64,000 nucleotides of DNA from Oxalobacteraceae bacterium OTU3CAMAD1 (GTDB taxonomy: Bacteria > Pseudomonadota > Gammaproteobacteria > Burkholderiales > Burkholderiaceae_D): NCBI GenBank assembly GCA_024123915.1, contig CP099650.1, positions 6,448,001 through 6,512,000 of the forward strand, given 5' to 3'. A program made the translations under genes and the position numbers. The stretch's first letter is position 1, and every line of letters starts with the position of its first letter. Under the pieces are notes generated by a model. It searched no databases, had not been told where the DNA came from, and worked only from the letters and a program-made list of their open reading frames with translations. Positions 34,424 to 50,396 of this stretch are shown in pieces.

Positions 34424-34456
34424 TTTTGTGCAAACTAAATATTTTTATGCACAAAA
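34424..34456. promoter_or_regulatory. Two tandem GntR-type boxes in the divergent catabolic promoter
   Basis: TTTTATGCACAAAA (34443-34456) differs by one base from the 14-bp palindrome in front of the GntR gene (39100-39113). TTTTGTGCAAACTA (34424-34437) is a weaker copy exactly 19 bp away. They lie between the DUF1185 and FAH genes and could control both arms. Confidence 0.7.
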
Positions 34457-34511
34457 TTTAAAATTGATCCTATAATTGTTTCACACCCCCACACCAACAC
34501 GAGGAGACTCC

Positions 34512-35360
34512 ATGAAATTGATTTCGTACCGCCGCGCCTCACGCGCCCACTTCGGCATCGTCACCGACGGCGGCGTGGTCGAGCTGACCGACAAGGTCGC
34601 CGGCGCACCCGACCTCGCCACCCTGCTGGCCGATCCGCATTTGCTGGCGCAGGCGCGCCAGCTCGCCGCCGGCAAGGCCGACTACCCGTTCGACAGCGTG
34701 GCCCTGGAGCCGGTCATCCCCAAGCCGGGCAAGGTGGTCTGCGTCGGCATCAACTATGTCGAGCACGCCCACGAGGCCGGCCGCAAGATCGGCCAGTATC
34801 CGGTGATCTTCCAGCGTTACAGCGAGACCCTGATCGCGCACGGCTCGCCGCTGCTGCGGCCCAAGGCGTCGACGCAGTTCGACTTCGAGGCCGAGCTGGC
34901 GATCGTCATCGGTAAGGGCGGCGCCCACATCGACCCGGCCAACGCCATGGAACACGTGGCCGGCTACACCTGCTTCAACGACGCCAGCGTGCGCGATTGG
35001 CAGTTCCACACCCACCAATACGGCATGGGCAAGAACTTCGCCGGCACCGGCGCGCTGGGCCCGTGGCTGGTCACCAGCGACGACATCGCCGACTACCGCG
35101 AGCTGACGGTCACCGGACGCCTCAACGGCGAGCAGCTGCAATCGGGCAAGCTGTCCGAACTGGCCTTCGACATCCCGGCGCTGATCGCCTACATCTCCCA
35201 GGCGCTGCCGTGGAACCCGGGCGACATCCTGGCCACCGGCACCCCGAGCGGCATCGGCTTCAAACGCACCCCGCCGATTTTCCTGGAGGCCGGCGGCGTC
35301 TTCGAAGTCACCATCGCCGGCATCGGCACCCTGTCCAACCCGGTCGTCGACGAAGCCTGA
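34512..35360 (+). CDS. FAH-family hydrolase/hydratase
   Basis: A 282-residue protein; the ATG at 34512 is preceded by GAGGAGA. The FAH fold shows VVCVGINYVEHAHEAGR, the metal-binding FDFEAELAIVIGKGGAHI, YTCFNDASVRDWQFHTHQYGMGKNFAGTGALGPW and GDILATGTPSGIGFKRTPP. Such enzymes act on ring-cleavage products as hydrolases, hydratases or decarboxylases. It differs clearly from the shorter NagK. As first gene of the plus arm it probably acts after the dioxygenase and dehydrogenase encoded downstream. Confidence 0.86.
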   Translation: MKLISYRRASRAHFGIVTDGGVVELTDKVAGAPDLATLLADPHLLAQARQLAAGKADYPFDSVALEPVIPKPGKVVCVGINYVEHAHEAGRKIGQYPVIFQRYSETLIAHGSPLLRPKASTQFDFEAELAIVIGKGGAHIDPANAMEHVAGYTCFNDASVRDWQFHTHQYGMGKNFAGTGALGPWLVTSDDIADYRELTVTGRLNGEQLQSGKLSELAFDIPALIAYISQALPWNPGDILATGTPSGIGFKRTPPIFLEAGGVFEVTIAGIGTLSNPVVDEA

Positions 35361-35396
35361 TACGCTAGCCGCACAAGACCTATAAAGGAGATACGC

Positions 35397-35948
35397 ATGT
35401 CCAAGCTGCCCCGCATCCAGTTCACCCACACCGGCTTCCACTGCGCCGACCTCGACAACATGGTCGCGTTCTACACCAGCAAGCTCGGTTTCATCGTCAG
35501 CGACCGGGGCGTGGCCTCAACCGGCCACCGGCTGTTCTTCATGACGCAGGACCCGGAAATCCACCACCAGCTGGTGATGTTCGACGGCAAACCGACCGGC
35601 CTGGAGTTCAATCCGATCAACCAGCTGTCGCTGCTGCTCGACTCGATCGACGACCTGTGCCTGTACTACCGCCAGTTGCAGGAGTTCGGCATCGGACCGA
35701 TCGACCAGGTCGACCACGGCAACGCCTGGTCGCTGTACTTCAAGGACCCCGAGGGCAATCCGATCGAGATGTATGTCGACAGCCCGTTCTACACCGCGCA
35801 GCCGTGCCGCGAGCCGCTCGACCTGACGCAGACGCCGGCGCAAATTCTCGAACAGACCGAGGCCATGTGCCGCCGCCGTCCCGGCTTCCTGACGCGTGAG
35901 GAGTGGATCGCCCAGACGCGCGAGAAGATCCGCCTGCAGCGCGTATGA
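35397..35948 (+). CDS. VOC-family extradiol-type ring-cleavage dioxygenase
   Basis: A 183-residue single-module vicinal-oxygen-chelate protein. Likely metal ligands are the first His in FTHTGFHCADLDNMV, a His in EIHHQLVMF, and Glu in GNPIEMYVDSPFY. The fold matches one-domain type I extradiol dioxygenases. The last 40 residues (QTPAQILEQTEAMCRRRPGFLTREEW) form an extra helical tail seen in catabolic relatives. It probably opens the hydroxylated ring made by the monooxygenase at 37401. Its stop overlaps the ALDH start (ATGA). Confidence 0.8.
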   Translation: MSKLPRIQFTHTGFHCADLDNMVAFYTSKLGFIVSDRGVASTGHRLFFMTQDPEIHHQLVMFDGKPTGLEFNPINQLSLLLDSIDDLCLYYRQLQEFGIGPIDQVDHGNAWSLYFKDPEGNPIEMYVDSPFYTAQPCREPLDLTQTPAQILEQTEAMCRRRPGFLTREEWIAQTREKIRLQRV

Positions 35949-37387
35949 GACGCAACCACGGCAACTACATCGACGGCACCTGGATCGACGGCGCCGCCAT
36001 GCGCGATAACCGCAATCCGTCCGACCTGTCCGACAGCGTCGGGTTGTACGCGCAAGCCGATGCCGCGCAGGCGGCGCACGCAGTGGCCGCAGCGGCGGCT
36101 GCCCAAGTCAGCTGGGCACACGGCGGCATCCAGGCCCGCGCCGATGCGCTCGACTTCATCGGCACCGAGCTGCTGGCGCGGCGCCAGGAACTGGGCGCCC
36201 TGCTGGCGCGCGAGGAAGGCAAGACGCTGCCGGAGGCGGTGGCCGAAGTCGGACGCGCCGGCCAGATCTTCAAGTTCTTCGGCGGCGAGGCGCTGCGCCT
36301 GCGCGGCGACCGCCTGGCCTCCGTGCGGCCCGGCGTCGACATCGAAGTCACGCGCGAGCCGGTCGGCGTGGTCGGCATCATCACGCCGTGGAACTTCCCG
36401 ATCGCCATCCCGGCGTGGAAGATCGCGCCCGCCCTCGCCCACGGCAACAGCGTGGTGTTCAAGCCGGCCGACCTGGTACCCGGAAGCGCCTGGGCGCTGG
36501 CCGAGATCATCAGCCGCGCGGGACTGCCGCCGGGCATCTTCAATCTGGTGATGGGACGCGGCGCCGTGGTCGGCCAGACCATCATCGACTCGCCTGCGGT
36601 GCGCGCGATCAGCTTCACCGGCTCGGTCGCCACCGGCCACGCGCTGCTGCAGGCGACGGCCCGGCGCCAGGCCAAGGTGCAACTGGAAATGGGCGGCAAG
36701 AATCCGCTGGTGATCCTCAACGACGCCAACCTCGACACTGCCGTCGACTGCGCCGTGCAAGGCGCCTACTACTCGACCGGCCAGCGCTGCACCGCCTCGT
36801 CGCGCTTCATCGTCGAAAAAGACATCTACCCGGAGTTCGTGCGCAGGACGACGGAAGCGCTGAAGGCGCTGCGGATCGGCCACGCGCTGCGCGCCGAGAC
36901 GCAAATCGGCCCGGTGGCCGACGCCGGCCAACTGGCGCAAAACCTCGATTACGTGGCCATCGGCCGCGCCGAGGGCGCGCGCCTGGCCTGCGGCGGCGAG
37001 CCGCTGCAACGCGACACGGACGGCCACTTCATGAGCCCCGCGCTGTTCGTCGACGCCACGCCGGACATGCGCATCGCGCAGGAAGAGATCTTCGGCCCGG
37101 TCGCCTGCGCGATCCCGGCCGACAATTACGAACACGCGCTGGAGATCGCCAACGGCACACCGTTCGGACTCTCGGCGGGCATCTGCACCGGCTCGCTCAA
37201 GCACGCGACCCATTTCAAGCGGCATATGCAAAGCGGCATGGTGATGGTTAACGTGCCCACCGCCGGCGTCGACTACCACGTGCCGTTCGGCGGCGCCAAG
37301 GGTTCGAGCCACGGCGCGCGCGAACAAGGCGGCTACGCGGCCGAGTTCTTCACCAGCGTCAAGACCGCCTATACCAGCACACAATAA
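35945..37387 (+). CDS. Aldehyde dehydrogenase, ketoglutarate-semialdehyde type
   Basis: A 480-residue NAD(P)-dependent ALDH. Opening RRNHGNYIDGTWIDG, ITPWNFPIAIPAWKIAPALAHGN, catalytic Glu in LEMGGKNPLVIL and catalytic Cys in YSTGQRCTASSRFIVE match the 2,5-dioxovalerate (alpha-ketoglutarate semialdehyde) dehydrogenase group. In this cluster it more likely oxidises the semialdehyde made by extradiol cleavage. It overlaps the dioxygenase gene by four bases, and the monooxygenase gene follows after 13. Confidence 0.88.
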   Translation: MRRNHGNYIDGTWIDGAAMRDNRNPSDLSDSVGLYAQADAAQAAHAVAAAAAAQVSWAHGGIQARADALDFIGTELLARRQELGALLAREEGKTLPEAVAEVGRAGQIFKFFGGEALRLRGDRLASVRPGVDIEVTREPVGVVGIITPWNFPIAIPAWKIAPALAHGNSVVFKPADLVPGSAWALAEIISRAGLPPGIFNLVMGRGAVVGQTIIDSPAVRAISFTGSVATGHALLQATARRQAKVQLEMGGKNPLVILNDANLDTAVDCAVQGAYYSTGQRCTASSRFIVEKDIYPEFVRRTTEALKALRIGHALRAETQIGPVADAGQLAQNLDYVAIGRAEGARLACGGEPLQRDTDGHFMSPALFVDATPDMRIAQEEIFGPVACAIPADNYEHALEIANGTPFGLSAGICTGSLKHATHFKRHMQSGMVMVNVPTAGVDYHVPFGGAKGSSHGAREQGGYAAEFFTSVKTAYTSTQ

Positions 37388-37400: not shown

Positions 37401-39011
37401 ATGGATTTCGATGTACTGATCGTCGGCCTGGGACCGGTCGGCGCGGTGGCCGCCAGCCTGGCAGGCAAATGGGGCCTGAGCGCGCTGGCCGTCGACAAGG
37501 CCGAGGCGGTGTACGACAAGCCGCGCGCCTTCGGCCTGGACCACGAAGTGATGCGCACCTTCGACAACATCGGCATCGCCCAGGCGATCGCCGGCAACGT
37601 CATGCCCTACCGCACCTCCGAATACCAGGCCAAGGGCGGGCGTGTGCTCAAACGCATCGCCCCGGCCAGCGCGCCCTACCCGCTGGGCTGGGCGCCAAAC
37701 TATGTATTCTCGCAGCCGGCCATCGAAGGCGCGCTGCGCGCCAACCTAGCCACGATGAGCGGCGTGCAAACGGAGTTGGGCACGGAGGTGCTGTCGGTCA
37801 CGCAGGACGGCGACACCTGCCGCGCGCTGCTGCGCGACCGCGATGGGCGCGAGCGCCACGTCAGCGCGCGCTACGTGCTTGCCTGCGATGGCGGCACCAG
37901 CCCGCTGCGTGTGCAGCGCGGCATGTCGATGGAAGACCTGCAATTCGACGAGCCCTGGCTGGTGGTCGATGTCATGGTCACGCCGGAGGTGGCCGAGCGC
38001 CTGCCTGCGACCAACATCCAGTTCTGCGAGACCGATCGGCCGTGCACCTATATCATCGGCCCGGGCCTGCACCGGCGCTGGGAATTCATGATCAACGACG
38101 ACGAGACGCCGGCCGGCGTGCAGCAACCGGAGGCGATCGCCGCGCTGCTGGCGCGCTGGATGGCGCCGGGCGAGTACGACCTGTGGCGCGCCTCGGCCTA
38201 CCGCTTCCACGCGCTGATCCTGAAGACCTGGCGCGACCAAAACCTGTTCTTCCTCGGCGACGCCGCCCACATGACGCCGCCGTTCATGGCGCAGGGCATG
38301 TGCCAGGGCATCCGCGACGCCGCCAACCTGATATGGAAACTGGCGCTGGTGCGGCGTGGCGCGGCAGCCCCGACGCTGCTCGACACTTATCAGGCCGAAC
38401 GCGTGCCGCACGTACGCCAGACCACGCTCGTCACGCGCGAACTGGGCCGCGTCATCTGCGAGCGCGACCCGGCCAAGGCCGCCGAGCGCGACACCCGCAT
38501 GCTGGCGGAGATGGCCGCGCAGCAGGCGCCGACGGTGCGGCAGTCGCTGATTCCGGGGCTGTCGGCCGGCCTGCTGGCGCCGGCGCGCGACGAGCATCCG
38601 GACAGCGCGCGCGGCCACCTGTTCCCGCAGCCGGAGGTGGAAAACTCGACCGGCCGCCAAGGCTTGCTCGACGAGTTCACCGGCAACACCTTCCGCCTGG
38701 TCGCCGCGCCCGGCGCCAGCGTGCTGCCGCTGCGCGAGGAGATCCGCAGCTGGGACAGCCTGGAGGCGCTGCCGCTGTCGGTGGTCGCGCTGACCGACGA
38801 CGCGGATGGCAAGCCGCAAGCCTGGCACGCCTACCGCGAGCGCCACGGCCTGCTGGCCGGATGGCTGCGCGGGCATGGCTGCCAGTACGTGCTGGTGCGG
38901 CCCGACCACTACGTCTACGGCGGCGCCGCCAACTTGGCGCAAGCGCTGGAGCTGCTGGCCGAGCTGCGGCTGACGCTCAACGGCGTGCGCAGCGAAGCGC
39001 CGGTGTTTTAA
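37401..39011 (+). CDS. MhpA-like FAD-dependent aromatic monooxygenase
   Basis: A 536-residue class A flavoprotein hydroxylase. FAD motifs: LIVGLGPVGAVAASLAG (GxGxxG, 8-24), the DG motif VLACDGGTSPLR and the GD motif FFLGDAAHMTPPFMAQGMCQGIRDAANLIWKL. It matches the 3-(3-hydroxyphenyl)propionate hydroxylase (MhpA) family in length and layout. It would add an ortho hydroxyl to a phenolic ring, making the substrate for the VOC dioxygenase. None of the MhpB, C, D, E or F partners are present, so the natural substrate probably differs from that of E. coli. Confidence 0.88.
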   Translation: MDFDVLIVGLGPVGAVAASLAGKWGLSALAVDKAEAVYDKPRAFGLDHEVMRTFDNIGIAQAIAGNVMPYRTSEYQAKGGRVLKRIAPASAPYPLGWAPNYVFSQPAIEGALRANLATMSGVQTELGTEVLSVTQDGDTCRALLRDRDGRERHVSARYVLACDGGTSPLRVQRGMSMEDLQFDEPWLVVDVMVTPEVAERLPATNIQFCETDRPCTYIIGPGLHRRWEFMINDDETPAGVQQPEAIAALLARWMAPGEYDLWRASAYRFHALILKTWRDQNLFFLGDAAHMTPPFMAQGMCQGIRDAANLIWKLALVRRGAAAPTLLDTYQAERVPHVRQTTLVTRELGRVICERDPAKAAERDTRMLAEMAAQQAPTVRQSLIPGLSAGLLAPARDEHPDSARGHLFPQPEVENSTGRQGLLDEFTGNTFRLVAAPGASVLPLREEIRSWDSLEALPLSVVALTDDADGKPQAWHAYRERHGLLAGWLRGHGCQYVLVRPDHYVYGGAANLAQALELLAELRLTLNGVRSEAPVF

Positions 39012-39099
39012 GCGGGCAGACAAGACGCGCCGGCGCCATCCGATGGCCCGGCGCGGCCGCACGATTGCCCGATTTGGTTAATAGTTTGCATTATCCGCG

Positions 39100-39113
39100 T
39101 TTTATGCATAAAA
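39100..39113. promoter_or_regulatory. Perfect 14-bp palindrome, GntR autoregulatory operator
   Basis: TTTTATGCATAAAA is fully symmetric and ends 28 bases before the GntR start. A degenerate copy may lie 18 bp upstream (TAGTTTGCATTATC, 39082-39095). Related sites occur at 34424-34456 and 50345-50396. Confidence 0.7.
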
Positions 39114-39141
39114 TGTGATTTATATAACCGGACTGAAAGCT

Positions 39142-39843
39142 ATGGACACCACTCCCATCGAACTGTCGCCAGGCACCTCCCTGATCGACGTCGCGCTGCA
39201 GAAGATGAAGCACGCCATCGTCTGCTGCGAGCTGCCGCCCGGCTTCAAGCTCAAGGTCGACGCCCTCTCCAAGCAGTATGGCATCAGCAGCTCGCCGATC
39301 CGCGAGGCGCTGAACCGCCTGGCGCAGGAAGGTGTGGTCACCGCCAGCGACAACAAGGGCTTCCGCGTCGCGCCGATCACGGTCGAAGATTTTCGCGAGA
39401 TCACACGCGTGCGCGTGCTGCTCGAATGCGAGGCGCTGTCGGACGCGATGAAGTACGGCGACGACGCCTGGGAAGGCGATGTGCTGGCCGCCTTCCACCG
39501 CCTGAGCGTGACCGAGAAGCGCATGGGCCAGGGCCCGGTGGCGTTGAACGACGACTGGGCCGAACGCCACAAGCACTACCACTTCACCTTGTTTTCGGCG
39601 TGTCCGTCGACGCTGCTGCTGTCGATGGTCGACTCGCTGTTCGACCGCGCCGAGCGCTATCGGCGCTTCTCCGCGATGCACCGCCAGACCGAGCGCCACA
39701 AGAGCAACGAGCACCAGATGCTGATGGAAGCGGTGCTCGCGCGCGACCACGACAAGGCGGTCGGCATGCTGCGCCGGCACATCGAGCACACGCAAGATAC
39801 GGTCACCGAAGCAATCCTGCGCCAGCAAGCGACCTTGCAGTGA
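39142..39843 (+). CDS. GntR-family regulator, FadR/FCD subfamily
   Basis: A 233-residue regulator. The N-terminal winged helix (about 12-80) has LKVDALSKQYGISSSPIREALNRLAQEGVVTASDNKGFRVAP, the standard GntR DNA-binding signature. The FCD effector domain (about 90-225) has the metal-site histidines in ERHKHYHFTLFSACPS and SNEHQMLMEA. FCD regulators are usually repressors released by an organic acid. A perfect palindrome precedes the gene, and matching sites stand before both catabolic arms and the transport operon at 50268. The start at 39142 fits the family; nine extra codons upstream do not. Confidence 0.88.
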   Translation: MDTTPIELSPGTSLIDVALQKMKHAIVCCELPPGFKLKVDALSKQYGISSSPIREALNRLAQEGVVTASDNKGFRVAPITVEDFREITRVRVLLECEALSDAMKYGDDAWEGDVLAAFHRLSVTEKRMGQGPVALNDDWAERHKHYHFTLFSACPSTLLLSMVDSLFDRAERYRRFSAMHRQTERHKSNEHQMLMEAVLARDHDKAVGMLRRHIEHTQDTVTEAILRQQATLQ

Positions 39844-40211
39844 CCCCAAACATACCCGCGCTGGAAGCCAGGCGGTGCGCCGCACTGCTCTCGGCCGACA
39901 TCGCCGACTTGACCCGGCTGTTCGCCGACGACATGGTGTGGATACACGGCTCCGGCAAGTCGGACGGCAAGGCCGGCATGCTCGACGCCATAGCCTCGGG
40001 CAAAACCCGATACCTGGACATCGAAAACTCGCGGCAGAACATCCGGTTCTTCGGCCAGACGGCCATCATCGACGGTCTGGTCGACATGCGCTTGAACCTG
40101 GCCGGAGAAGTCAAACAGATCCATAGCCGGTTCACCATCTGCTGGGCCGGGACCGGCGAAGACTGGCAGATCGTCCACTGGCAATCGACGCCGGTGCGCC
40201 AGCCGGCCTAG
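39840..40211 (+). CDS. SnoaL/NTF2-like protein (DUF4440 type)
   Basis: A 123-residue cone-fold protein. It starts with GTG at 39840, overlapping the GntR stop (GTGA); no ATG fits. ALLSADIADLTRLFADDMVWIHGSGKSDGKAGMLDAIASG and the terminal RFTICWAGTGEDWQIVHWQST are typical of NTF2-like enzymes or binding proteins. It may be a small isomerase/cyclase or a ligand-binding helper. Coupling to the regulator suggests a role in the same pathway, but no activity can be assigned. Confidence 0.75.
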   Translation: MTPNIPALEARRCAALLSADIADLTRLFADDMVWIHGSGKSDGKAGMLDAIASGKTRYLDIENSRQNIRFFGQTAIIDGLVDMRLNLAGEVKQIHSRFTICWAGTGEDWQIVHWQSTPVRQPA

Positions 40212-41070: not shown

Positions 41071-41339
41071 GATGTTTCCCTTTTTGACGGAAGGAATGAA
41101 GAGGCTTCCATCTTAGGGCGGCCATCACGACGGGCGGTAGCTCGATCCTGTCCAGCTGTTGCCCGATCCTGTCGGACCAAGTGGTAGCTCGCGGTCACAC
41201 GCAGCGCTCCCCATGCCTTACTCAAATCGAACTGGAGACTGCGAGCGTAATCTCGACCGCATCAATGAACAATGAAGTATTATTGAATAATAGTAAACAT
41301 TATATAACTAGCAAACATATAGCTCCTGTCGGAGGAAAA

Positions 41340-42428
41340 ATGATTAACATGTCGTTTGACGACTACGTCTACTTCCCAGCATTGCGAACGCGCCAAGCAG
41401 AGTTAAAGGGCTTGGAGCACCTGTCGACAGATCAGAAGCGGCAAATCCTGCCCATGTTGACACTGGGCCGATGGCCTAAAGCTACCGAGTTCAAGAAGTC
41501 GGCGGAAAAAGCCGCCGAGGCGATGGAGAACCTCCCTCATGTTCTGGACCTGACCAACGATGCGTCACATCTGGGGGAAGAGCAAAGCAAGCTCCGAGAC
41601 TCCACCGATAGTTTTGCTGCATGGCGGGACTTCGCGCTTCAATACCGCAGTGCGATCCCCGTGGTACAACTGGTGCCCGGTTCAAAAGCAAGGGATCAAG
41701 TCCGGCAGGCGACGCTGCTGGAACAGTCCGTAGGTAAAATCGCGTTTCGAATCCGGGACTTTGCGATCGATACGCCGCTGATCATTAACGCGATAAGCGC
41801 GATGGATGATCCCGGCAATGCACTTGTGTACATCGATTGCCAATACATAAGAAGCGCCTTGGCCGCCTACGTCACCGCGACTGTTGCGACCATCAATCAG
41901 TTACGTGCGGAGTTTCCCGAGCTTTTTATCGTCGTTTTGTCGACGAGCTTTCCGCCTTCCGTAATACCGTTCGCGGATACGTCCCAACAACGCGGAGTGA
42001 TCGATATTCAGGAGCGAGATTTGCATTCGCGTATAGGCGGCAGCGCGGTCGCGGCATATGGTGATCATGGCTCGGTACATTCGGTAGTCTACGACGACAC
42101 GAAAATCATGCGCTGGTCGGCAAGGATAGACTATCCCAGGGAACTCAGTTGGCAATTTGAGAGGCGACCAAGAGATCAAGCAGAAGCCGGATATATTTCA
42201 GCAGCGGCCGCAATTTCCGCTACCGATCCCGACATCGGAAAGCGTGACATTTGGGGCGAGGAGATGATCGTAAAAGCAGCGCAAGGTCAACCTCACGCCA
42301 GGGCACCAGCGCCATGGATCGCAGTACGGGTGAACATTCATCTCGCGCGCCAGCTTGCGTTTTCTCAGAGACTAGACGCAGATGGGAATCAAGCTGGCGA
42401 TGACGATGCCGAAGATTTTGACGGCTGA
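41340..42428 (+). CDS. Beta family protein (phage beta-protein-like)
   Basis: A 362-residue soluble protein. The start at 41340 follows a clear GGAGGAAAA site; an upstream frame has none. YVYFPALRTRQAELKGLEHLSTDQKRQILPMLTLGRWP is the characteristic opening of the beta-protein family, followed by the DLTNDAS, VPVVQLVPGS-like and RIRDF patches. The family is named after a phage protein and its activity is not established to my knowledge. The gene is visibly richer in A/T than its neighbours. Its last 40 bases overlap the convergent sce7726-like gene. Confidence 0.72.
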   Translation: MINMSFDDYVYFPALRTRQAELKGLEHLSTDQKRQILPMLTLGRWPKATEFKKSAEKAAEAMENLPHVLDLTNDASHLGEEQSKLRDSTDSFAAWRDFALQYRSAIPVVQLVPGSKARDQVRQATLLEQSVGKIAFRIRDFAIDTPLIINAISAMDDPGNALVYIDCQYIRSALAAYVTATVATINQLRAEFPELFIVVLSTSFPPSVIPFADTSQQRGVIDIQERDLHSRIGGSAVAAYGDHGSVHSVVYDDTKIMRWSARIDYPRELSWQFERRPRDQAEAGYISAAAAISATDPDIGKRDIWGEEMIVKAAQGQPHARAPAPWIAVRVNIHLARQLAFSQRLDADGNQAGDDDAEDFDG

Positions 42429-43075
42429 GGACGCACTCTGGGGGTGGCCGTCAGAGGCTGCTGAGGCAAGGTCGTCAAATAGGTCTCGACGGATAAAGGA
42501 ATCAATGGCTGGTCCCTCCCTTTTTTGCGAACGCGTTCCTGTATGCGTAACTCACGTCTTCGAAGGTAGTCCAGCACATACTTACGTATCGCCTTTAGCG
42601 AAATATCGACAGCTGCGGCTAAGAGGTCATGGCGATGGCGACCAAGCTTGATGCCGTGCGCCTTCAGGATCTTGCGAAGTTCGTCGACAGGTAGAAACGA
42701 AAGCCAACTTTCCAGTGAGTTTTGTTCCAGGTTCTTTGCTTTGCGTACCTTGCGAATTGAACCGTCGTTACCGACAGTCCAAATGCCCACCTCGCTAAAC
42801 GAGTTCGCCGCGACCCCTTCCAAGTGACGCTCCGCGCAAACAACCGTCACCTGCTCAAAGAACCGCGTGTAGGACTTCAATTGGCCATCCAGGCGATTCA
42901 GCTTGTCCCGCTCGCTTTTAATCTCAAACGCGACAAGCTTGTTGCCGGCGACGACCAGGTCTGCTCGTCGCGTGAACTCGTCAACAAACATCTCCGGAAT
43001 AAAGGTCGAGTTCGCCCAGGTCGCGGTACCCGACATCGACGTGATTATGGCGTTCCTGATTTCTAACTCTGTCAT
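42389..43075 (-). CDS. sce7726-like PD-(D/E)XK nuclease-fold protein
   Basis: A 228-residue protein. The N-terminal 75 residues contain a restriction-endonuclease core: TRRADLVV (D39), LVAFEIKSERD (E51-x-K53) and GQLKSYTRFF (Q65-x3-Y69), the QxxxY extension of RecB/Cas4-like nucleases. The middle (about 110-180) is helical and basic, and the C-terminal ~40 residues are Pro/Ser-rich. I place it in the sce7726 family, which is often found beside beta-family proteins. The two genes are convergent and overlap by 40 bases here. Function is not established; defence is an inference. Confidence 0.72.
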   Translation of the reverse strand: MTELEIRNAIITSMSGTATWANSTFIPEMFVDEFTRRADLVVAGNKLVAFEIKSERDKLNRLDGQLKSYTRFFEQVTVVCAERHLEGVAANSFSEVGIWTVGNDGSIRKVRKAKNLEQNSLESWLSFLPVDELRKILKAHGIKLGRHRHDLLAAAVDISLKAIRKYVLDYLRRRELRIQERVRKKGRDQPLIPLSVETYLTTLPQQPLTATPRVRPQPSKSSASSSPA

Positions 43076-43198: not shown

Positions 43199-43663
43199 TT
43201 AGTTATACACACCCGTCAGCACAATCAACTCCCCCACCTTCTCGAAATACGACGAGCGCGGCGCCATCGCCTTGGTCGTGGGATTGAACCAGACAAAATC
43301 GACCCATCCCGCGCCCTTGCTCTTTGCGATATCCAGCTCCTCGCGCACAAAGGCCTTGCCGTTGACGTCCTTGACATCGATCAACGCCTTGCCCACCAGC
43401 TTGGGCTTGTTCCCGTCGGCCAGCAGCACGCCGTTCATGTCCAGCACCACCACATACAGCTCGCCGCTGACGAACTGCCCCTCGGTCTTGTTGAACTCCG
43501 CCAGCGACTTCTCCGGGCCGTTCTGCTTCAGATAGGCGACGGCCTTCTTCACCATGTCCACCGCCTCGTCCTTGCTGGCCGCGAAAGCGGCCACCGGCGC
43601 CTGGCACACCAGCGCCAGCAACACCGGCGCGAGCCATCGCTTCATACTGATGCTCATATTCAT
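43199..43663 (-). CDS. Periplasmic single-Cache-domain protein, fourth paralogue
   Basis: A 154-residue exported protein: signal peptide to about residue 28 (VAAFAAS), Cache core GELYVVVLDMNGVLLADGNKPKLVGKALIDVKDVNGKAFVREELDIAKSKGAGWVDFVWFNP. Its ATG (43663) overlaps the RND permease stop (ATGA), so it is translated with the transporter. An AAGGAGACTGT site lies upstream. A secreted Cache protein fixed to an export operon suggests it binds the transported molecule in the periplasm. Confidence 0.78.
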   Translation of the reverse strand: MNMSISMKRWLAPVLLALVCQAPVAAFAASKDEAVDMVKKAVAYLKQNGPEKSLAEFNKTEGQFVSGELYVVVLDMNGVLLADGNKPKLVGKALIDVKDVNGKAFVREELDIAKSKGAGWVDFVWFNPTTKAMAPRSSYFEKVGELIVLTGVYN

Positions 43664-46092
43664 ACAGTCTCCTTCAAAGCGTGATTGTGAACGGCCGGCG
43701 CAATGTCCACGGACGCCTTCCGATTGGGGTTCAACAGGAAGTGCGCCAGCGCCGGCAGCAGGATCAGCGCGCCCAGCATATTCCAGATGAACATGAAGCC
43801 CAGCAGGATGCCCATATCGGCCTGGAATTTGATCGGCGAGAAAGCCCATGTCGCCACGGCGATGCCCAAGGTCACGCCGGTCAGCACGACCACTTTGCCG
43901 GTGAATAGAAGCGCCTTGTAGTAGGCCGCCGACAGGCTCGCGCCACGACGCAGCTCCACCATCATCACCGAAACCACATACAGCGCATAATCGACGCCGA
44001 TGCCGACACCGAGCGCGATCACCGGCAACGTCGCGACCTTGACGCCGATACCCAGTCCCACCATCAGCGCCTCGCACAGCACGGACGTCAGCATCAGCGG
44101 CAGCACCGCGCACACCACCGCGCGCCACGAGCGGAACGTCACGAACGCCAGCACGATGACGGCCGCATACACCCACAACAGCATCTGCGTATTGGCCTTC
44201 TTGACGACGATGTTGGTGGCCGCCTCGATGCCGGCGTTGCCGGCGGCCGACAGGAACTGTATATCCTTGCTGTTGTTGGCGGCGGCGAAGGCCTCGACCT
44301 CGCGCACCACCGCATCGAGCGTGTCAGCCTTGTGATCCTTCAGATAGACGTACACCGTCAGCAGGTCGCAATTCTGGTTGAGCAGCTCGCGCGGCGCGCG
44401 CGTGGTGATCGCGTTGAGCATGTCCTGGGAGCGTGGCAGGTCGAACCATTTCAGGCTGCCCTCGTTCATGCCCGCCGACGCACGCTTGCTCAAGGTCGCA
44501 TACGAATTGGTCGACTCGACGCCGGCCAGCTGCTGCAATTTCCACTCCAGCGCCTCGACCTGCACCAGCGTCGCATACGTGGCGCACTGGTACTGAGGCG
44601 TGCGCACCATGACCACGTAGTTGTCGCTGCTGGCGGCGTAGTTGGCGGCCATGAAGGCGCTGTCGCGGTTGTAGCGCGAATCGGCGCGCAGCTCGGGGGC
44701 GCCGGGATCGAGGTCGCCGATCTTCAGATGCGTGCTGACGACGCCACCGGCCACCGCCAGCACCACGCCGACACCGATGGCGATACCGGCCCAGCGGCGG
44801 CCGGTGAAGCGGTCGAGGAAGGCCCACAAGCGGTGCTTGCGCGGCGCGCCGGTGGCATCCGTGCCCTCCTCGTCGCGCAGGCTGCGCTGCGCGGCGGCGG
44901 CGCTGACGCCGGTGTACGACAGCAGCACCGGCAGCAGAATCAGATTGGTGAAGATCAGCATCGCAACGCCGACGCTGGCGGCGATCGCCAGGTCGTGGAT
45001 CACCGGGATGTCGATCACCATCAGCACGGCGAAGCCAACGGCATCGGCCAGCAGCGCCGTCAGCCCGGCCAGGAACAGCCGGCGGAACGTGTAGCGCGCC
45101 GCCACCAGCCGGTGGGCGCCGCGGCCGATGTCCTGCATGATGCCGTTCATTTTCTGCGCGCCGTGGCTCATGCCGATGGCGAACACCAGGAACGGCAGCA
45201 GCACCGAATACGGATCGAGATCGAAGCCAAGCAGCGGCAAGGCGCCCAGCAGCCACAAAGACGCCACCAGCGAACACGCCACCACCAGCAAGGTGCTGCG
45301 CACGCAGCGGGTGTACCACAGCAGCACGCCGGCGCAGATGGCCAGCGCGACGGCGAAGAACAGCAGCACCTGGCGCATGCCGTCGATCAAATCACCGACC
45401 ACCTTGGCGAAGCCCGTGATGTGGATGCGCACGCCCTGCGCCTCGTACTTGGCGCGCAGCTGTTCGAGCCGGTCCGACAGCGCCGCGTAGTCGATGCGCT
45501 GGGCGCCGCTGGTGTCGAGCAGCGGCACGACGATCACGCTGGATTTGAAGTCCGGCGCCACCAGCGCGCCGATCTCGCCGGAGCGCTCGATGTTGGCGCG
45601 CAGCTCGGCGAGCCGTGCGGGCGAGCCGTCGAAACCGTCCGGTATCACCGGCCCGCCGTCAAGACCCTCTTCCGTCACGCCGATCCAGCGCACCGACGGC
45701 ATCCAGATCGATTTCATGAACGAGCGGTCGACGCCGGGCACCAGGAACAGCTCGTCGCTGAGCTGGCGCAAGGTCTCCATGTAGCGCGCGCTGTAGATGG
45801 TGCCGTCGGGGCTGGCGACGGCCACGCGCAGGGTGTTGCCCAGTCCCGCCAGGTCAGCCTTGTGCGCCTGGTAGTTCTGCACGAACGGATGGCGCGCGGG
45901 GATCATGCGCTCGAAGCTGGGGTTGAGGCGCACGCCGAGCGCCTGCCAGCCCAGCAAGGCCGTCAGCAGCACGAACAAGATCAGCACGCCGACGCGGTGA
46001 TTGAACAGCAGCCGCTCGACTGCCGAGCCGGAGCGCGGGTCGAACTGGTCCAGTTGGGCGATCACCGGGTGATCGGGGGTCGGGGTATGCAT
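43660..46092 (-). CDS. MMPL/RND-superfamily transporter permease
   Basis: An 810-residue inner-membrane protein with about 12 helices in two repeats, each with a large periplasmic loop after the first helix. RFTGRRWAGIAIGVGVVLAVAGGVV opens the second half. ALGVGIGVDYALYVVSVMMVELRRG holds the conserved Gly/Asp helix motif of proton-driven RND permeases, and FAIGMSHGAQKMNGIMQDIGRG is the matching region of the first half. It has no periplasmic adaptor partner, as is usual for MMPL/HpnN-like transporters that move lipids or hydrophobic compounds. It lies four bases after the YCF48-like gene. Confidence 0.88.
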   Translation of the reverse strand: MHTPTPDHPVIAQLDQFDPRSGSAVERLLFNHRVGVLILFVLLTALLGWQALGVRLNPSFERMIPARHPFVQNYQAHKADLAGLGNTLRVAVASPDGTIYSARYMETLRQLSDELFLVPGVDRSFMKSIWMPSVRWIGVTEEGLDGGPVIPDGFDGSPARLAELRANIERSGEIGALVAPDFKSSVIVVPLLDTSGAQRIDYAALSDRLEQLRAKYEAQGVRIHITGFAKVVGDLIDGMRQVLLFFAVALAICAGVLLWYTRCVRSTLLVVACSLVASLWLLGALPLLGFDLDPYSVLLPFLVFAIGMSHGAQKMNGIMQDIGRGAHRLVAARYTFRRLFLAGLTALLADAVGFAVLMVIDIPVIHDLAIAASVGVAMLIFTNLILLPVLLSYTGVSAAAAQRSLRDEEGTDATGAPRKHRLWAFLDRFTGRRWAGIAIGVGVVLAVAGGVVSTHLKIGDLDPGAPELRADSRYNRDSAFMAANYAASSDNYVVMVRTPQYQCATYATLVQVEALEWKLQQLAGVESTNSYATLSKRASAGMNEGSLKWFDLPRSQDMLNAITTRAPRELLNQNCDLLTVYVYLKDHKADTLDAVVREVEAFAAANNSKDIQFLSAAGNAGIEAATNIVVKKANTQMLLWVYAAVIVLAFVTFRSWRAVVCAVLPLMLTSVLCEALMVGLGIGVKVATLPVIALGVGIGVDYALYVVSVMMVELRRGASLSAAYYKALLFTGKVVVLTGVTLGIAVATWAFSPIKFQADMGILLGFMFIWNMLGALILLPALAHFLLNPNRKASVDIAPAVHNHALKETV

Positions 46093-46096
46093 GGGA

Positions 46097-47173
46097 TTAC
46101 GGTCCTTCGAGAGGGTTCAGGGCGATGCGGGTGACGCCGCGCACGCCGGAGACGATGACATTGCCGTCGCCGGCCTGCGCCACACCGGTCAGCGGCGTGG
46201 CCGGTCCGCCGCGCATCGGCGCGAAGCGCTTGCCGCCGTCGCCGCTGCGGAACAGGTGGCCCGTTTCATCGGTCAGCAGCAGGCTGCCGTCCTTGAGTCG
46301 GGTGCCGGCCGTGAGCGAGTGTTCGGTGCCGATCCCGCTTTTCTGCCAGGCGCCGCCGTCGGACCAGTAGACGTTGCCGCGCATGCCGAACAACACCGCG
46401 TGCGCACCGGCGGCCAGCGCGCCGAAATAAGTGCCGGCGTAAGGCGTGGCGGAGGTGGCAAACGTACGCCCGCCGTCTGTTGACAGGAACACCGCGCCCT
46501 GCTCGCCGGCGATGACGCAGCGCGCGCCGTCGATGGCGACCGCATACAGATGCTTGCCCTGCGGGTTGTCGAGGCGATCGAGCGCGGCCTGCCAGGTGGC
46601 GCCGCCGTCATCGGTGGCGAACAACAGGCCGAACGCGCCCACCAGCAGTCCGTGGCGCTGGTCGAAGAAGTTGATGTCCAGGAAGGGCTTGCTCGGACCT
46701 TCGGCATGCAGCCGTTCGGCGTCGGCCAGCAGACGGGCCGCATCGGCGCCCGGCGCCACGCGACCCGCCTTGACGGCAGCCAGCACCAGCGCGGCGGCGG
46801 CCTTGCCATCGAGCTGCTTGCGCCAGGTCTGTCCGCCGTCGCTGGTGCGCAGCAACACGCCGCTGTGCCCCACCGCCCAGCCGTCGCGCGGCGTGGTGAA
46901 GCGCGCGCCGACCAAGGACACACTCACCGGCACCTCCGACTGGCGCCAGCTGACACCGGCATCATCCGAGTACACGACGATACCGCGCTCGCCCAGGGCA
47001 ATCAGGCGCGGCCCGGCCTGGGCGATGCCCAACATGACCGACGTGGCGGCCTTGGCGGTGCGCGTGGCGGGCCGCTCCAGCACGTCCGGCTCGGCGCGCG
47101 CCGGCGCCGCCATCAAGGTGGCGGCCGCGCCGAGGACGGCCAGCGCGGCTTGCCCTTTAAGAATGTTCTTCAT
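46097..47173 (-). CDS. YCF48/BNR-repeat beta-propeller protein, exported
   Basis: A 358-residue protein with signal peptide 1-27 (ending in APARA) and repeated beta-propeller blades of the YCF48 type: YSDDAGVSWRQSEVPV, RTSDGGQTWRKQLDG, ATDDGGATWQAALDR and LSTDGGRTFATSATP, plus RSGDGGKRFAPM. The DGGxTW Asp-box recurs five or six times. Such proteins often accompany DUF1302/DUF1329/RND operons, where they are thought to help assemble or link envelope parts. It lies 24 bases after the DUF1329 gene. Confidence 0.85.
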   Translation of the reverse strand: MKNILKGQAALAVLGAAATLMAAPARAEPDVLERPATRTAKAATSVMLGIAQAGPRLIALGERGIVVYSDDAGVSWRQSEVPVSVSLVGARFTTPRDGWAVGHSGVLLRTSDGGQTWRKQLDGKAAAALVLAAVKAGRVAPGADAARLLADAERLHAEGPSKPFLDINFFDQRHGLLVGAFGLLFATDDGGATWQAALDRLDNPQGKHLYAVAIDGARCVIAGEQGAVFLSTDGGRTFATSATPYAGTYFGALAAGAHAVLFGMRGNVYWSDGGAWQKSGIGTEHSLTAGTRLKDGSLLLTDETGHLFRSGDGGKRFAPMRGGPATPLTGVAQAGDGNVIVSGVRGVTRIALNPLEGP

Positions 47174-47197: not shown

Positions 47198-48556
47198 TTA
47201 GCGGCTGCCCTTGGCGGCCAGGTTCTCCGGCGTGAAGTAACTGTCGTTCCAGCGCGGCACCTGCTTGTACTGGTAGGCCTTCTCGCCGGGGAAATTGGCG
47301 AACACGTAGGTGTTGGCTAGCAGGTTGTACAGCCCGAAGCTCTGCGACACGGAGCCCGGCACATCCGGCATGGCCATCGGCAGGGTGTAGCCGACGCGCC
47401 AGATCTGGCCCTGGCCATCCCACATGTCCGACAGCACCATGTTGTAGGTGTCCTCGTCAAGGTAGAAGCGGCGTTTGGGCACGGCGTGGCGCTTGCCCGG
47501 CGCAACGGTCGCTTCCACTTCCCACACGCGGTGCAGCTCCCAGCGCACATGGTCCGGATTCACGTGCTGTGGCCCCAGCAGGTCGGCCGGCTTGGCCAGC
47601 CAGGTACGGTTGCTGTTGTACGGCACATACAATTCCTTCTTGCCGATGATTTTGTAGTCGTAGCGATCGAGGCTGCCGGAAAAGCCGAACGCCTCGTCGA
47701 AGTAGAACGCGCCCGAGGCGACGCTGTCGGGCGTGTCGTAGCCGAGGGTCGGCGCCTTGCGGGTGCGGCGCTGGCCGACCAGGTACTGCCAGGCCTGGCG
47801 GCCTTTGCCGGAGTCGACCGAGTCGCGCAGCAGGATCGATTCGCCGGCCTTGAACGGTGGCCCGTAGGTGACCAGCATCAGGTTGTTGTAGTCGCCTTTG
47901 AAGCTCTCCAGCGAACCATCCTTGAACCAGTACGGCGACTGCACTTCGCTCAGGCCGTCCGAGGCCATCGTCAGCTTGCCATCCGACGTGGTGACGAACA
48001 GGCGGAACAGCATCGAGCTGGCCTGGCCGCGCCACGCCAGCAACTGGTTCCACATCATCTCGTGGCCGGTCTTGGCGATCGGGAACGGTACGCCGCCGTA
48101 GCAGCCTTCGAGCGAATTGCCGCCATCGGCGGTCTTGCAGCGCGTGGCGTTCTTCATCGTGTTGTCGTAGGCCCATTGCGGCAGCGCGGCGGTGCGGTGG
48201 CTCGGGTAGACGTCGATGCGGTAGGTCGGGTACTTCTTCATCAGCGCCTTGACGCCCTCGGTCAGCTTGTCGGCGTGCTGGTCCATGTTCTTGGCGCTGA
48301 TCGACAGCAGCGGCTTTTCGCCGGCGAACGGGTCCGGACGCGGGTCGCCGTCCTTGTAGCCTGCCGGCACCTTGGTGGCGCCGCCGTCCCATGCCGGAAT
48401 GGTCCCGGCCTTGTTGCCGGCCTTTTCGGCGCCCATCGGCGTCAATTCGCCCTTGAGTTTGGCGGCCTCGTCGGCTGTCACCGCTGCTGGCGCCGTCTGG
48501 GCCAGGCCGAGCATCAGGGAAGCGAGCGCGGCCCGCTGGAAGGTAGTGGTGGTCAT
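47198..48556 (-). CDS. DUF1329 family exported protein
   Basis: A 452-residue protein: signal peptide 1-25 (QTAPAAVTADEA), then the DUF1329 pattern LKGELTPMGAEKAGNKAGTIPAWDGG, DPFAGEKPLLSISAKNMDQHADKLTEG, QRRTRKAPTLGYDTPD and RRFYLDEDTYNMVLSDMWDGQGQIWRVG. The beta-rich body resembles LolA/LolB-like lipid carriers, so a periplasmic shuttle for a hydrophobic molecule is plausible. The start at 48556 is 17 bases after the DUF1302 stop. Always found with DUF1302 proteins in my experience of such operons. Confidence 0.87.
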   Translation of the reverse strand: MTTTTFQRAALASLMLGLAQTAPAAVTADEAAKLKGELTPMGAEKAGNKAGTIPAWDGGATKVPAGYKDGDPRPDPFAGEKPLLSISAKNMDQHADKLTEGVKALMKKYPTYRIDVYPSHRTAALPQWAYDNTMKNATRCKTADGGNSLEGCYGGVPFPIAKTGHEMMWNQLLAWRGQASSMLFRLFVTTSDGKLTMASDGLSEVQSPYWFKDGSLESFKGDYNNLMLVTYGPPFKAGESILLRDSVDSGKGRQAWQYLVGQRRTRKAPTLGYDTPDSVASGAFYFDEAFGFSGSLDRYDYKIIGKKELYVPYNSNRTWLAKPADLLGPQHVNPDHVRWELHRVWEVEATVAPGKRHAVPKRRFYLDEDTYNMVLSDMWDGQGQIWRVGYTLPMAMPDVPGSVSQSFGLYNLLANTYVFANFPGEKAYQYKQVPRWNDSYFTPENLAAKGSR

Positions 48557-48573
48557 GTGTGTCCCCTGCGAAA

Positions 48574-50268
48574 TTAGAATGTGCTCTGCAGCGAGAACGC
48601 GATGAAGCTGCGGTCCTTGCTGGTCTGCTGGTACTGCAAAATGGTCAGCTGCGGCGGCACGTTCGGCTTGATGAAGGTGCCCTGGGCGCCGAAGAAGTGC
48701 ACCAGGTTCAGGCCGAACTTGAATTGCTTGCGGTAGTCGAAGGTGGCGCCGACGCTGACGTCGCCGCCGTGCTCGGCGCCGCCGGCAAAGCGCAGGCCGG
48801 TCGACGAGCGTCCGCTGAGCGCGTAGCCGACGCCGACCGGCACGCTTAAGTCGATGCCAGGCAAGACCTGGTAGTACTCGGGCGTGAACAGCAGGCGCAG
48901 GCCGCTGGCGTCGCGCGTGCTGTTCGGATCGAGCGCGCCCGGATTGGCAGTCACACTCAGGCGGCGGTTCCAGGCCAGCTCGCCGAGCACGGAGCCGCCG
49001 TCCCACAGGCCGCTGCCGTTGAGCACATAGATCGCCGACAGGTTGGCGTGCGCCGTGTTGCCGACCGCGTAGGCGGCCGAGTCGCGGTTGTTACCAGCGC
49101 CGAAGGCCACCACCGGATCGCTGACCAATGGCGCGTCGCGCCGCGTCGACAGCTCCAGCGCGACGTTGGCGCCGGCGATGGTGGTGCTGACGCTGGCGCC
49201 GAAGGCCTTGATGTCCTCGCCGTAGACCTGGCGGTAGGTGCCCACCGACGGCAGCGCGGGCACGGCGGCCGGCGTCAGGTACAGATTGAAATCCTTGTCG
49301 TGATAGCGGATCAGGTACAGGCCGAACTCGGCGATCTCGCTCTCCGGACGGAAGCGCAATTGCAAGCCTCCCTGCCCGCTGTTCTTAGGCTTGATGTCCT
49401 CGATACGGTTGAAATAGACATGCGCGTCCGAGCCCGGCGCGTAGAAGCGCTCCGCGCCCGTGCCGACGTAATCGGCGAACGAGAAATAGCTGCCCGAGGC
49501 GGGAATGCGGTTGCCGCGCCACTCGAACTGGTAGTAGCCGCCCAAGGTGACATTGGGCATGAGCTGTAGCTGTCCCGACACCTGCGTGACCGGCATCAGC
49601 AATTCCTTGAACTGGGTGCCGGGCACGGATACCAGCTTGATCACGTCCACCGGTGCCTGGCCGGCGGAGATGCCGTTGTCGCCGAAGAACAGCGTCTCGC
49701 CGTACAGCACGGTGTGGCGACCCAGGCGCACGCTGGCGGGCATGTCGCCGATCGGGAAGCGGCTGTAAACGAAGGCGTCGAGCAGCTCAGCCTTCTCGCC
49801 GTGCAGTTTTTTCGTGGCCGACGTGAACTGGTCGCTGGCGACGCTGAGCTGGCTGGCCGTGCCCGGGGAACCATGGTCGTTGGCGCGGTTGTAGACGCTG
49901 TCGTACCAGGCGGCGCCGGAAATGCGCAGGCCCGATTCCTTGTAGCTGAGGTCGAGTTCGGACAGGAGGTCGACGCGATTGTTGATCATGCCGCGCGAGA
50001 AGTTGCGGTCGCCGTCGTCGGTGTTGGCGTCAACCACCAGACCGGGCGACATTTTTTTCAGACGGAAGGCGTTGCTGTACTTGACGGTGTTGTCCCAGCG
50101 GCCCTTGACGTCGGGGTTGCCGGTGTCGAGTTCGATGGCGCCGGCGGCGGGCATCGCACCCAGTTGCACGAAGATGGCTACTGCGGTGGCGGTGGCGACG
50201 TTCAGGCGCCGCCGCCCGGCAGGTGCGTGAGCCGGCCGGCCCCGCCCCTGGGTTCCCTTGGTTGTCAT
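48574..50268 (-). CDS. DUF1302 family outer-membrane beta-barrel protein
   Basis: A 564-residue protein with a long basic N-terminus and signal segment (about 22-44, ending in PAAGAIE), then a barrel-like pattern of alternating strands beginning DTGNPDVKGRWDNTVKYSNAFRLKK and ending with Phe (FIAFSLQSTF), as for outer-membrane barrels. FSRGMINNRVDLLSELDLSYKESGLRISGAAWYDSVYN and GLQLRFRPESEIAEFGLYLIRYHDKD are DUF1302 hallmarks. It is first in the five-gene transport operon, with three GntR-type boxes 77-128 bases upstream of its start. Confidence 0.87.
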   Translation of the reverse strand: MTTKGTQGRGRPAHAPAGRRRLNVATATAVAIFVQLGAMPAAGAIELDTGNPDVKGRWDNTVKYSNAFRLKKMSPGLVVDANTDDGDRNFSRGMINNRVDLLSELDLSYKESGLRISGAAWYDSVYNRANDHGSPGTASQLSVASDQFTSATKKLHGEKAELLDAFVYSRFPIGDMPASVRLGRHTVLYGETLFFGDNGISAGQAPVDVIKLVSVPGTQFKELLMPVTQVSGQLQLMPNVTLGGYYQFEWRGNRIPASGSYFSFADYVGTGAERFYAPGSDAHVYFNRIEDIKPKNSGQGGLQLRFRPESEIAEFGLYLIRYHDKDFNLYLTPAAVPALPSVGTYRQVYGEDIKAFGASVSTTIAGANVALELSTRRDAPLVSDPVVAFGAGNNRDSAAYAVGNTAHANLSAIYVLNGSGLWDGGSVLGELAWNRRLSVTANPGALDPNSTRDASGLRLLFTPEYYQVLPGIDLSVPVGVGYALSGRSSTGLRFAGGAEHGGDVSVGATFDYRKQFKFGLNLVHFFGAQGTFIKPNVPPQLTILQYQQTSKDRSFIAFSLQSTF

Positions 50269-50344
50269 GCTGGTCTCCTTGAAGCGGCTGTGCGCCGCGT
50301 ATCTCGTTATTTTTTAGCCGGTCAGCAAGCGCCGCCTGCGAATT

Positions 50345-50396
50345 CATTATGCATCAAATATTTTTTTATGCATAGTTTATTATTTTATGCATTTAT
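50345..50396. promoter_or_regulatory. Three ATGCAT boxes at exact 19-bp spacing upstream of the transport operon
   Basis: CATTATGCATCAAA (50345-50358), TTTTATGCATAGTT (50364-50377) and TTTTATGCATTTAT (50383-50396) each match 11 of 14 positions of the palindrome at 39100-39113. Their centres are 19 bp apart, as for the pair at 34424-34456. The rest of the 354-base gap (50397-50622) holds nothing I recognise. Confidence 0.7.

Follow-up and report, generated by a model that had tools for sequence, protein, structure and literature searches.

A TGCA-centred operator and an FCD-type GntR regulator proposed to join an hcd-type catabolic cluster to an AmeABCD-type envelope operon in Duganella

Coumarins are plant secondary metabolites, and Pseudomonas mandelii 7HK4 degrades 7-hydroxycoumarin by means of the hcd genes (PMC7913881, PMC6222606). 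In the published passages on this strain, HcdE is a zinc alcohol dehydrogenase (ADH) that reduces the pyrone ring, HcdA a flavin monooxygenase acting on 3-(2,4-dihydroxyphenyl)propionate, HcdB a type I extradiol dioxygenase and HcdC a 31.2-kDa hydrolase of the FAA family; the same passages report no activity for HcdD (DUF1185), HcdF (cupin) and HcdG (FMN reductase superfamily). The tested hcd genes, including hcdR, are upregulated about 1000-fold with 7-hydroxycoumarin, and 3-(2,4-dihydroxyphenyl)propionate also induces. Here we analyse a 64,000-nt stretch (the window) of the 7.48-Mb genome of a soil bacterium, Oxalobacteraceae bacterium OTU3CAMAD1, in which a catabolic cluster of similar composition, a gene for an FCD-type GntR regulator (gntR) and a five-gene envelope operon share a 14-bp palindrome in their promoter regions.

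Envelope operons linked to catabolic genes have been described previously. Deletion of AmeABCD lowered monoterpene tolerance in Castellaniella (PMC6394551), and joint regulation of DUF1302/PF07044/COG1033/COG4447 operons and aromatic catabolism has been predicted in some Betaproteobacteria for each of AphS, AphR and AphT (PMC6449761). On account of this prediction, the type of circuit, a DUF1302-type operon and aromatic catabolism under one regulator, is already known; the operator and the substrate class differ here. In the open-licence literature we found no description of this regulator lineage with its TTTTRTGCAYAAAA operator, or of an hcd-type cluster and an Ame-type operon under common control (further literature cited: PMC10866462, PMC4494728, PMC6667623, PMC10282184, PMC8119895). 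From the sequence, we consider it fairly probable that the GntR protein is a local repressor of its own gene, of both hcd-type catabolic operons and of the envelope operon.

Operator copies at three promoter regions

A first-pass annotation of the window had proposed that one palindrome marks three promoter regions, and the copies it listed are all present (Table 1). The exact 14-mer TTTTATGCATAAAA lies at 39100-39113, ahead of gntR. A copy with one mismatch, at 34443-34456, lies between the two divergent catabolic operons and is preceded at 19 bp by a weaker partner, TTTTGTGCAAACTA (34424, four mismatches). Three copies with three mismatches each (11 of 14 positions matching) start at 50345, 50364 and 50383, in exact 19-bp steps before the DUF1302 gene of the envelope operon. 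Leaving aside the weaker partner, these are exactly the five 14-mers of the window at three mismatches or fewer; shuffles of the window gave a mean of 0.39 such places, and five were reached in none of 100 shuffles.

The annotation had also held that this sharing goes beyond chance, which proved right for some forms of the motif and not for others. The whole genome was scanned with mismatch patterns in place of a 14-bp matrix, and the motif pattern read backwards served as control. At up to three mismatches the 14-mer occurs at 108 places versus 88 for the control; it is not selective, and a lone copy of this quality therefore means little. At up to one mismatch it occurs twice, both times within the window. 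The paired form TTRTGCAH-N11-TTRTGCAH, at up to one mismatch, is found four times in the genome (control: once), always in the divergent and envelope promoter regions, so that near-exact 19-bp pairs are confined to this locus. One of the four (34407/34426) uses TTATACAC, which is better read as the -10 element of the leftward promoter. The 19-bp phasing exists in the divergent and envelope regions and is missing from the gntR promoter, where the neighbouring TGCA core lies 18 bp upstream and more plausibly represents a -35 element.

Ten further places in the genome match the 14-mer with two mismatches. Among the starts of the open reading frames beside all ten, read without a family search, no related catabolic gene was recognised, and none of the ten has a near-exact 19-bp partner. 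The regulon consequently looks local, as judged on these ten places. One of the ten, which stands before what appears to be another FCD-type GntR gene, more probably serves that protein.

The comparison was extended to 74 Duganella genomes, the present one and 73 others. GntR proteins at 75-83% identity are encoded in five of the 73, each with a DUF1302 orthologue (72-83%) on the same contig, as in the present genome (6/6). DUF1302 proteins at 72% or more occur in the same six of the 74 genomes, the next best reaching 55%. In the comparison of orthologous clusters that the annotation had called for, none of the three promoter regions has lost its sites in any of the five relatives, although the surrounding intergenic DNA has diverged. 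Exact 19-bp pairs number 19 across the 74 genomes, of which the six genomes that encode a close GntR account for 13, all at this locus. At up to one mismatch, pairs and control hits are about equally numerous in most other genomes of the genus. The other six exact pairs, one each in G004, G009, G020, G022, G043 and G046, stand in genomes without a close GntR orthologue and fall into two recurring sequence forms.

For each promoter region five distinct sequences were compared, those of the present strain and of its Duganella relatives; G072, which does not differ from G047 in the parts of these regions that were compared, did not enter the shuffles, promoter prediction and site collection, and its pairs were counted in the genome-wide pair scan. 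The collected sites were prefiltered for GC-centred cores, and the invariant GC in their table is thus there by construction. In the divergent region two boxes 19 bp apart are present in all five sequences. Boxes in 19-bp steps precede the envelope operon in all five as well, three at up to five mismatches in four sequences and two in G047. The present genome has four DUF1302 genes, and 15 DUF1302 paralogues, a subset drawn from eight genomes, served as controls: a 19-bp core pair stands ahead of all six orthologues and of no paralogue (0/15), and a 14-mer at up to three mismatches ahead of 4/6 orthologues and 1/15 paralogues. When 15 intergenic stretches were shuffled, the observed count was reached in 0-6% of shuffles, the DUF1302 stretch of G047 excepted.

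Chance matches in A/T-rich intergenic DNA would account for the near equality of 108 and 88 genome places. The 19-bp pairs, their conservation in five other genomes and the paralogue control reduce the probability of this explanation to almost nothing, and the shuffles, the reversed pattern and the paralogues led us to reject it.

The GntR regulator and its mode of action

The regulator scores above the gathering thresholds of both the GntR and FCD domains, which places it in the FCD/FadR subfamily of GntR proteins. It is not identified as CsiR, for which the NCBIfam equivalog scores 138 bits against a cut-off of 218.

Sites were surveyed at 37 loci with related regulators (32 genome loci and five plasmid loci, the latter from 251 plasmid records with a match), taking the best 14-mer within 220 bp upstream and scoring it as present at up to three mismatches. 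A site precedes the gene in 6/6 cases at 75-100% identity, all at one mismatch or fewer, in 8/10 at 45-51%, in 2/12 at 36-41% and in 0/9 at 30-34%. Site presence thus tracks regulator identity, which supports the assignment of the operator to this GntR; the site-bearing regulators at 45-51% include some from plasmids of Variovorax and Rhodococcus opacus. When 16 of the surveyed regulators are aligned, the helix SSSP(I/L)REAL is kept in 12/12 proteins of the TGCA lineage and replaced by VGAGT, VGPSP or VGSSP in the other four. Helix and site separate imperfectly, since two of these four carry sites, TTTTATCGATAAAA and TTTTTTGCAGAAAA; the centre of TTTTATCGATAAAA resembles that of the AphS/BphS site (AAATmTCGAkATTT, PMC6449761). 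On plasmid 7 of Rhodococcus opacus PD630, relatives of the GntR, FAH (fumarylacetoacetate hydrolase), DUF1185, aldehyde dehydrogenase, VOC, cupin and ADH genes are grouped, and the DNA separating gntR from the FAH gene contains a TTTTGTGCACAAAT site; this is a counterpart of the cluster in another phylum (L139).

Could the TGCA pairs be bound by another factor, such as an XRE regulator of the BoxR/BzdR type? The TGCA repeats reported for these proteins lie 1, 6 or 15 nt apart, and a distance of 15 nt equals the 19-bp period (PMC6449761). We regard this as highly improbable: 14 of the 16 relatives with at least 45% identity, in several families and in Rhodococcus, have the site before their own gntR gene, the TGCA sits within a longer, A/T-flanked palindrome, and there is no XRE-type gene among the scanned genes of the cluster (the rest of the genome was not searched).

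The operators overlap elements of four predicted promoters (Table 1), and for the divergent and envelope promoters the overlap holds in 5/5 distinct sequences. In the leftward promoter the hexamers and the 17-bp spacing are identical in all five distinct sequences; in the rightward one the hexamers are identical in all five, with spacings of 17, 17, 17, 16 and 16 bp. TTTGCA of the gntR promoter is kept in all five. The hexamers chosen for the envelope promoter are likewise kept in 5/5; this is the sole candidate common to all sequences and is among the two best of each. Four of the five sequences have other candidates with an equal or higher score, such as TTGTCG-17-TATAAA in the window, and none of these is common to all.

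Because the sites overlap predicted -35 and -10 elements, we read the GntR protein as a repressor. A dimer would recognise the palindrome TTTTRTGCAYAAAA, covering the spacer and -10 element of its own promoter, the -35 elements of both divergent catabolic promoters (two sites, 19 bp apart) and both the -35 and -10 elements of the envelope promoter (three sites in 19-bp steps). The 19-bp step would set one dimer on each core promoter element, and cooperation between adjacent dimers is probable. NanR is known to bind cooperatively, dimer beside dimer (PMC8012715), and the same has been suggested for AphS/BphS (PMC6449761). The aromatic substrate or an intermediate of the pathway may release the repressor, so that breakdown enzymes and envelope machinery would be made together.

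The same protein could act at the same promoters as an activator or dual regulator, like BphR1/Orf0 on the biphenyl genes of strain KF707. A review contrasts two GntR proteins in this respect: BphS, whose operator overlaps the promoter, represses, and BphR1, whose operator does not, activates. The review thus documents activation by a GntR protein; the sites studied here lie on the predicted -35 or -10 elements of four promoters, the arrangement it gives for the repressor, and activation therefore appears unlikely.

The first-pass proposal of one GntR regulon joining breakdown and membrane transport is thus supported by the pair scan, the sites of the orthologues, the paralogue control and the tracking of GntR identity. 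Several observations weigh against it, or against parts of the repressor model. The example of BphR1 is one of them. The promoter elements are consensus matches; the best-scoring form of the gntR promoter varies between sequences, and the chosen envelope promoter, top-ranked in G047, takes second place in the four remaining sequences, that of the window included. Two of the ten regulators at 45-51% identity, on Rhizobium and Caballeronia plasmids (45-46%), lack a site in the 220 bp upstream of the gene; 3-mismatch sites occur twice in other parts of the Caballeronia cluster and nowhere at the Rhizobium locus. The two site-bearing regulators at 36-41% carry another recognition helix. In G047 and G072, DUF1302 is preceded by the 19-bp core pair and by no 14-mer at up to three mismatches. 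Gene content varies too, G034 having no ADH beside DUF1185 and no VOC gene beside FAH, and G030 no aldehyde dehydrogenase. With regard to hcd, HcdG is an FMN reductase and the window has a nitroreductase-type protein above the cut-off for malonic semialdehyde reductase, the A, B and C genes stand in another order, and the likeness is one of families.

Two relatives carry additional operator pairs at other genes. In G034 (L082:11401-13542) a 19-bp pair, with two mismatches in each box, precedes an extra ADH (62%), a SnoaL-like gene and a VOC gene, which follow immediately on the envelope genes; G034 also has a 54% relative of the window's SnoaL-like protein downstream from an operator pair. In G030 (L086:7667-8984) a pair with four and two mismatches lies at the start of an MFS transporter gene (MFS_1) within the cluster. 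The make-up of the regulon therefore appears to change between relatives, with transport and enzyme genes both acquired and lost.

Catabolic genes, envelope genes and putative substrate

The leftward operon encodes, in order, the DUF1185/AA_synth protein, the zinc ADH, the cupin and the nitroreductase-type protein. The rightward operon comprises the genes for the FAH-family hydrolase, the VOC protein, aldehyde dehydrogenase and flavin monooxygenase, followed by gntR and the SnoaL-like gene. The hcdABC families occur together as class A flavin monooxygenase, VOC and FAH, the dioxygenase function being assigned by superfamily and by weak matches to HpaD and catechol 2,3-dioxygenase, below cut-off. 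The hcdDEF families are present as DUF1185, zinc ADH and cupin, in an order that agrees with the published order of names. The cupin gene adjoins the ADH gene in 5/6 Duganella loci, the present one included (G034 has no ADH there), and also in plasmid loci of Variovorax, Rhodococcus, Rhizobium and Agrobacterium.

The match to six of the seven published hcd families makes a hydroxycoumarin, or a related compound, the probable substrate. As the matches to the 7HK4 set (MH346032-34, MW310253) are at the level of families, we lean only slightly towards the hydroxycoumarin assignment. We do not take HcdG as essential to the pathway, given that the hcd passages report no activity for it. By analogy with 7HK4, the zinc ADH would reduce the hydroxycoumarin and the flavin monooxygenase would then hydroxylate 3-(2,4-dihydroxyphenyl)propionate; meta-cleavage by the VOC protein and hydrolysis of the product by the FAH-family protein would follow.

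A genuine regulon acting on another phenylpropanoid or coumarin relative, and not on 7-hydroxycoumarin, has a probability only a little short of even. Relatives of the regulator occur beside VOC, FAH and DUF1185 genes with no HcdA relative in the stretch read (L089, L090, L140), the nitroreductase-type gene falls outside the HcdG family, and aldehyde dehydrogenase is not named in the hcd passages. In addition, the island has acyl-CoA dehydrogenase and CoA-transferase genes, possibly of glutarate type, as neighbours in the window and in G050 and G047. Against these points stand the six matched families and the Pseudomonas relatives of the monooxygenase, mostly at 55-59% among the best 120 hits. 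In Pseudomonas and other genomes, monooxygenase and GntR hits come from contigs of equal length, an indication that the two genes may lie together there.

The envelope operon is proposed to encode an RND system of the AmeABCD type together with a Cache-domain protein. All four Ame families are matched in the same gene order. The best NCBIfam match of the MMPL protein, to the HAE3 model TIGR00921, reaches 159 bits, below the cut-off of 351.9. A Cache relative adjoins the MMPL gene in 6/6 genomes, the present one included. In G055 (L087:2194-2622) a Cache protein (sCache_2) is encoded in a cluster that has a GntR at 47% identity and, as far as it was read, no DUF1302 relative, which points to an association of the Cache protein with the catabolic regulon. 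As to the direction of transport, we slightly prefer export of a toxic substrate or of intermediates over uptake. In P. putida, DUF1302 and DUF1329 genes have been reported as essential for Tween 20 metabolism.

Table 1. Predicted regulatory elements and genes of the proposed regulon (positions in the window)
Feature	Coordinates	Strand	Remarks
Operator 1, divergent region (TTTTGTGCAAACTA)	34424..34437	+	19 bp from operator 2 in all 5 distinct sequences
Operator 2, divergent region (TTTTATGCACAAAA)	34443..34456	+	1 mismatch; conserved
gntR operator (TTTTATGCATAAAA)	39100..39113	+	covers spacer and -10
Envelope operator box 1 (CATTATGCATCAAA)	50345..50358	+	3 mismatches; site conserved
Envelope operator box 2 (TTTTATGCATAGTT)	50364..50377	+	3 mismatches; site conserved
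Envelope operator box 3 (TTTTATGCATTTAT)	50383..50396	+	3 mismatches; most variable box between genomes
Predicted leftward-operon promoter	34406..34434	-	-35 TTTGCA (34429-34434, in operator 1), 17 bp, -10 TATAAT (34406-34411)
Predicted rightward-operon promoter	34448..34476	+	-35 TGCACA (34448-34453, in operator 2), 17 bp, -10 TATAAT (34471-34476)
Predicted gntR promoter	39085..39114	+	-35 TTTGCA (39085-39090), 18 bp, -10 TAAAAT (39109-39114)
Predicted envelope promoter	50346..50374	-	-35 TATGCA (50369-50374, box 2), 17 bp, -10 CATAAT (50346-50351, box 1)
Nitroreductase-family protein, in HcdG position	31454..32044	-	PF00881 38.9 bits; NF003768 malonic semialdehyde reductase 276.5 bits, cut-off 152
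HcdF-like cupin	32046..32588	-	PF07883 30.2 bits, cut-off 27.2
HcdE-like zinc ADH, candidate hydroxycoumarin reductase	32600..33709	-	ADH_N, ADH_zinc_N (scanned as 32600-33757)
HcdD-like AA_synth (DUF1185), first gene of leftward operon	33762..34343	-	PF06684 207 bits; PDB 3byq E 6e-67
HcdC-like FAH-family protein	34512..35360	+	PF01557 211 bits (scanned as 34476-35360)
HcdB-like single-domain VOC, candidate extradiol dioxygenase	35397..35948	+	PF00903 46.8 bits
Aldehyde dehydrogenase	35945..37387	+	PF00171 517 bits; not in G030 cluster
HcdA-like class A flavin monooxygenase, MhpA type	37401..39011	+	NF004829 473.6 bits, cut-off 390
FCD-type GntR regulator, proposed repressor	39142..39843	+	GntR 52.5 bits (gathering score 27), FCD 64.8 bits (24.3); scanned as 39115-39843
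SnoaL/DUF4440-like small protein, overlaps gntR end	39840..40211	+	PF14534 62.8 bits; PF13474 40.3 bits
Cache-domain protein, signal-like N-terminus, last gene	43199..43663	-	PF08269 57.5 bits, PF17200 57.1 bits
AmeD-like MMPL protein, putative HAE3 RND	43660..46092	-	PF03176
AmeC-like YCF48 protein	46097..47173	-	PF14870
AmeB-like DUF1329 protein	47198..48556	-	PF07044 431 bits (scanned as 47198-49006)
AmeA-like DUF1302 protein, first gene	48574..50268	-	PF06980 426 bits

Neighbouring genes and relation to known systems

Between the gntR cluster and the envelope operon lie an SDR gene and two genes matching models of defence candidates. The latter (41181-43075) are a gene of the 'beta' family and one of the sce7726/'cll' family, both matching PADLOC models. 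G050 is without these intervening genes, and gntR and the Cache gene converge there directly.

On the other side, CoA-transferase III, acyl-CoA dehydrogenase and LysR genes (27915-31356) flank the island. The nearest model of the CoA-transferase is succinate-glutarate CoA-transferase, below cut-off, as are the nearest glutarate models; the acyl-CoA dehydrogenase we presume to be glutaryl-CoA-dehydrogenase-like. Genes of similar appearance, judged by eye, flank or split the island in G050 and G047. No operator at up to three mismatches stands ahead of the flanking CoA genes in the window, and no such genes were seen in the G030 stretch, read by eye. For these reasons we treat them as a place of insertion and not as part of the regulon, and a functional link with glutarate was set aside.

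We tentatively suggest that a regulator lineage extending from Burkholderiales to Rhodococcus and recognising TTTTRTGCAYAAAA governs catabolism of the hydroxycoumarin type, and that one group within Duganella captured a five-gene envelope machine by means of 19-bp operator arrays on its -35 and -10 elements; this remains doubtful as a whole. If it is true, the DUF1302, DUF1329 and Cache proteins would gain a defined class of natural substrates, plant hydroxycoumarins or their intermediates. Little is understood of DUF1302/DUF1329/YCF48/RND cassettes, of which some genomes have several copies; tying one of them by conserved operators to a single aromatic pathway points to a concrete class of compounds and supplies an hcd-type cluster with a candidate regulator and operator. 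As coumarins are plant metabolites, the proposal would also bear on how soil bacteria cope with them.

The locus combines features of several described systems. It shares with the hcd cluster of 7HK4 the flavin monooxygenase, VOC, FAH, DUF1185, zinc ADH and cupin families, and differs from it by the additional aldehyde dehydrogenase and envelope operon; the hcd passages name neither the family of hcdR nor an operator. Like NanR of Escherichia coli (PMC8012715), a GntR-type repressor of which three dimers bind cooperatively side by side on repeats, the regulator faces a row of sites; NanR has GGTATA repeats and an N-terminal extension, whereas here the sites are palindromes at 19 bp. With AphS/BphS (PMC6449761) it has in common a GntR protein on meta-cleavage genes and an even 14-nt palindrome in multiple copies. 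The AphS/BphS operator, however, is centred on TCGA and not on TGCA, the pathways are those of phenol and biphenyl, and AphR/AphT are partners. In the window that operator (AAATmTCGAkATTT) finds four places at three mismatches, against 1.53 expected (four were reached in 10 of 100 shuffles); one of them, at 50299, lies near the envelope promoter, and none overlaps an operator box. AmeABCD of Castellaniella defragrans, an HAE3 RND system (PMC6394551), likewise consists of DUF1302, DUF1329, COG4447/YCF48 and RND genes in this order beside a catabolic cluster; the operon described here differs in the added Cache protein, in the adjacent GntR proposed as its regulator, and in its association with aromatic instead of monoterpene catabolism.

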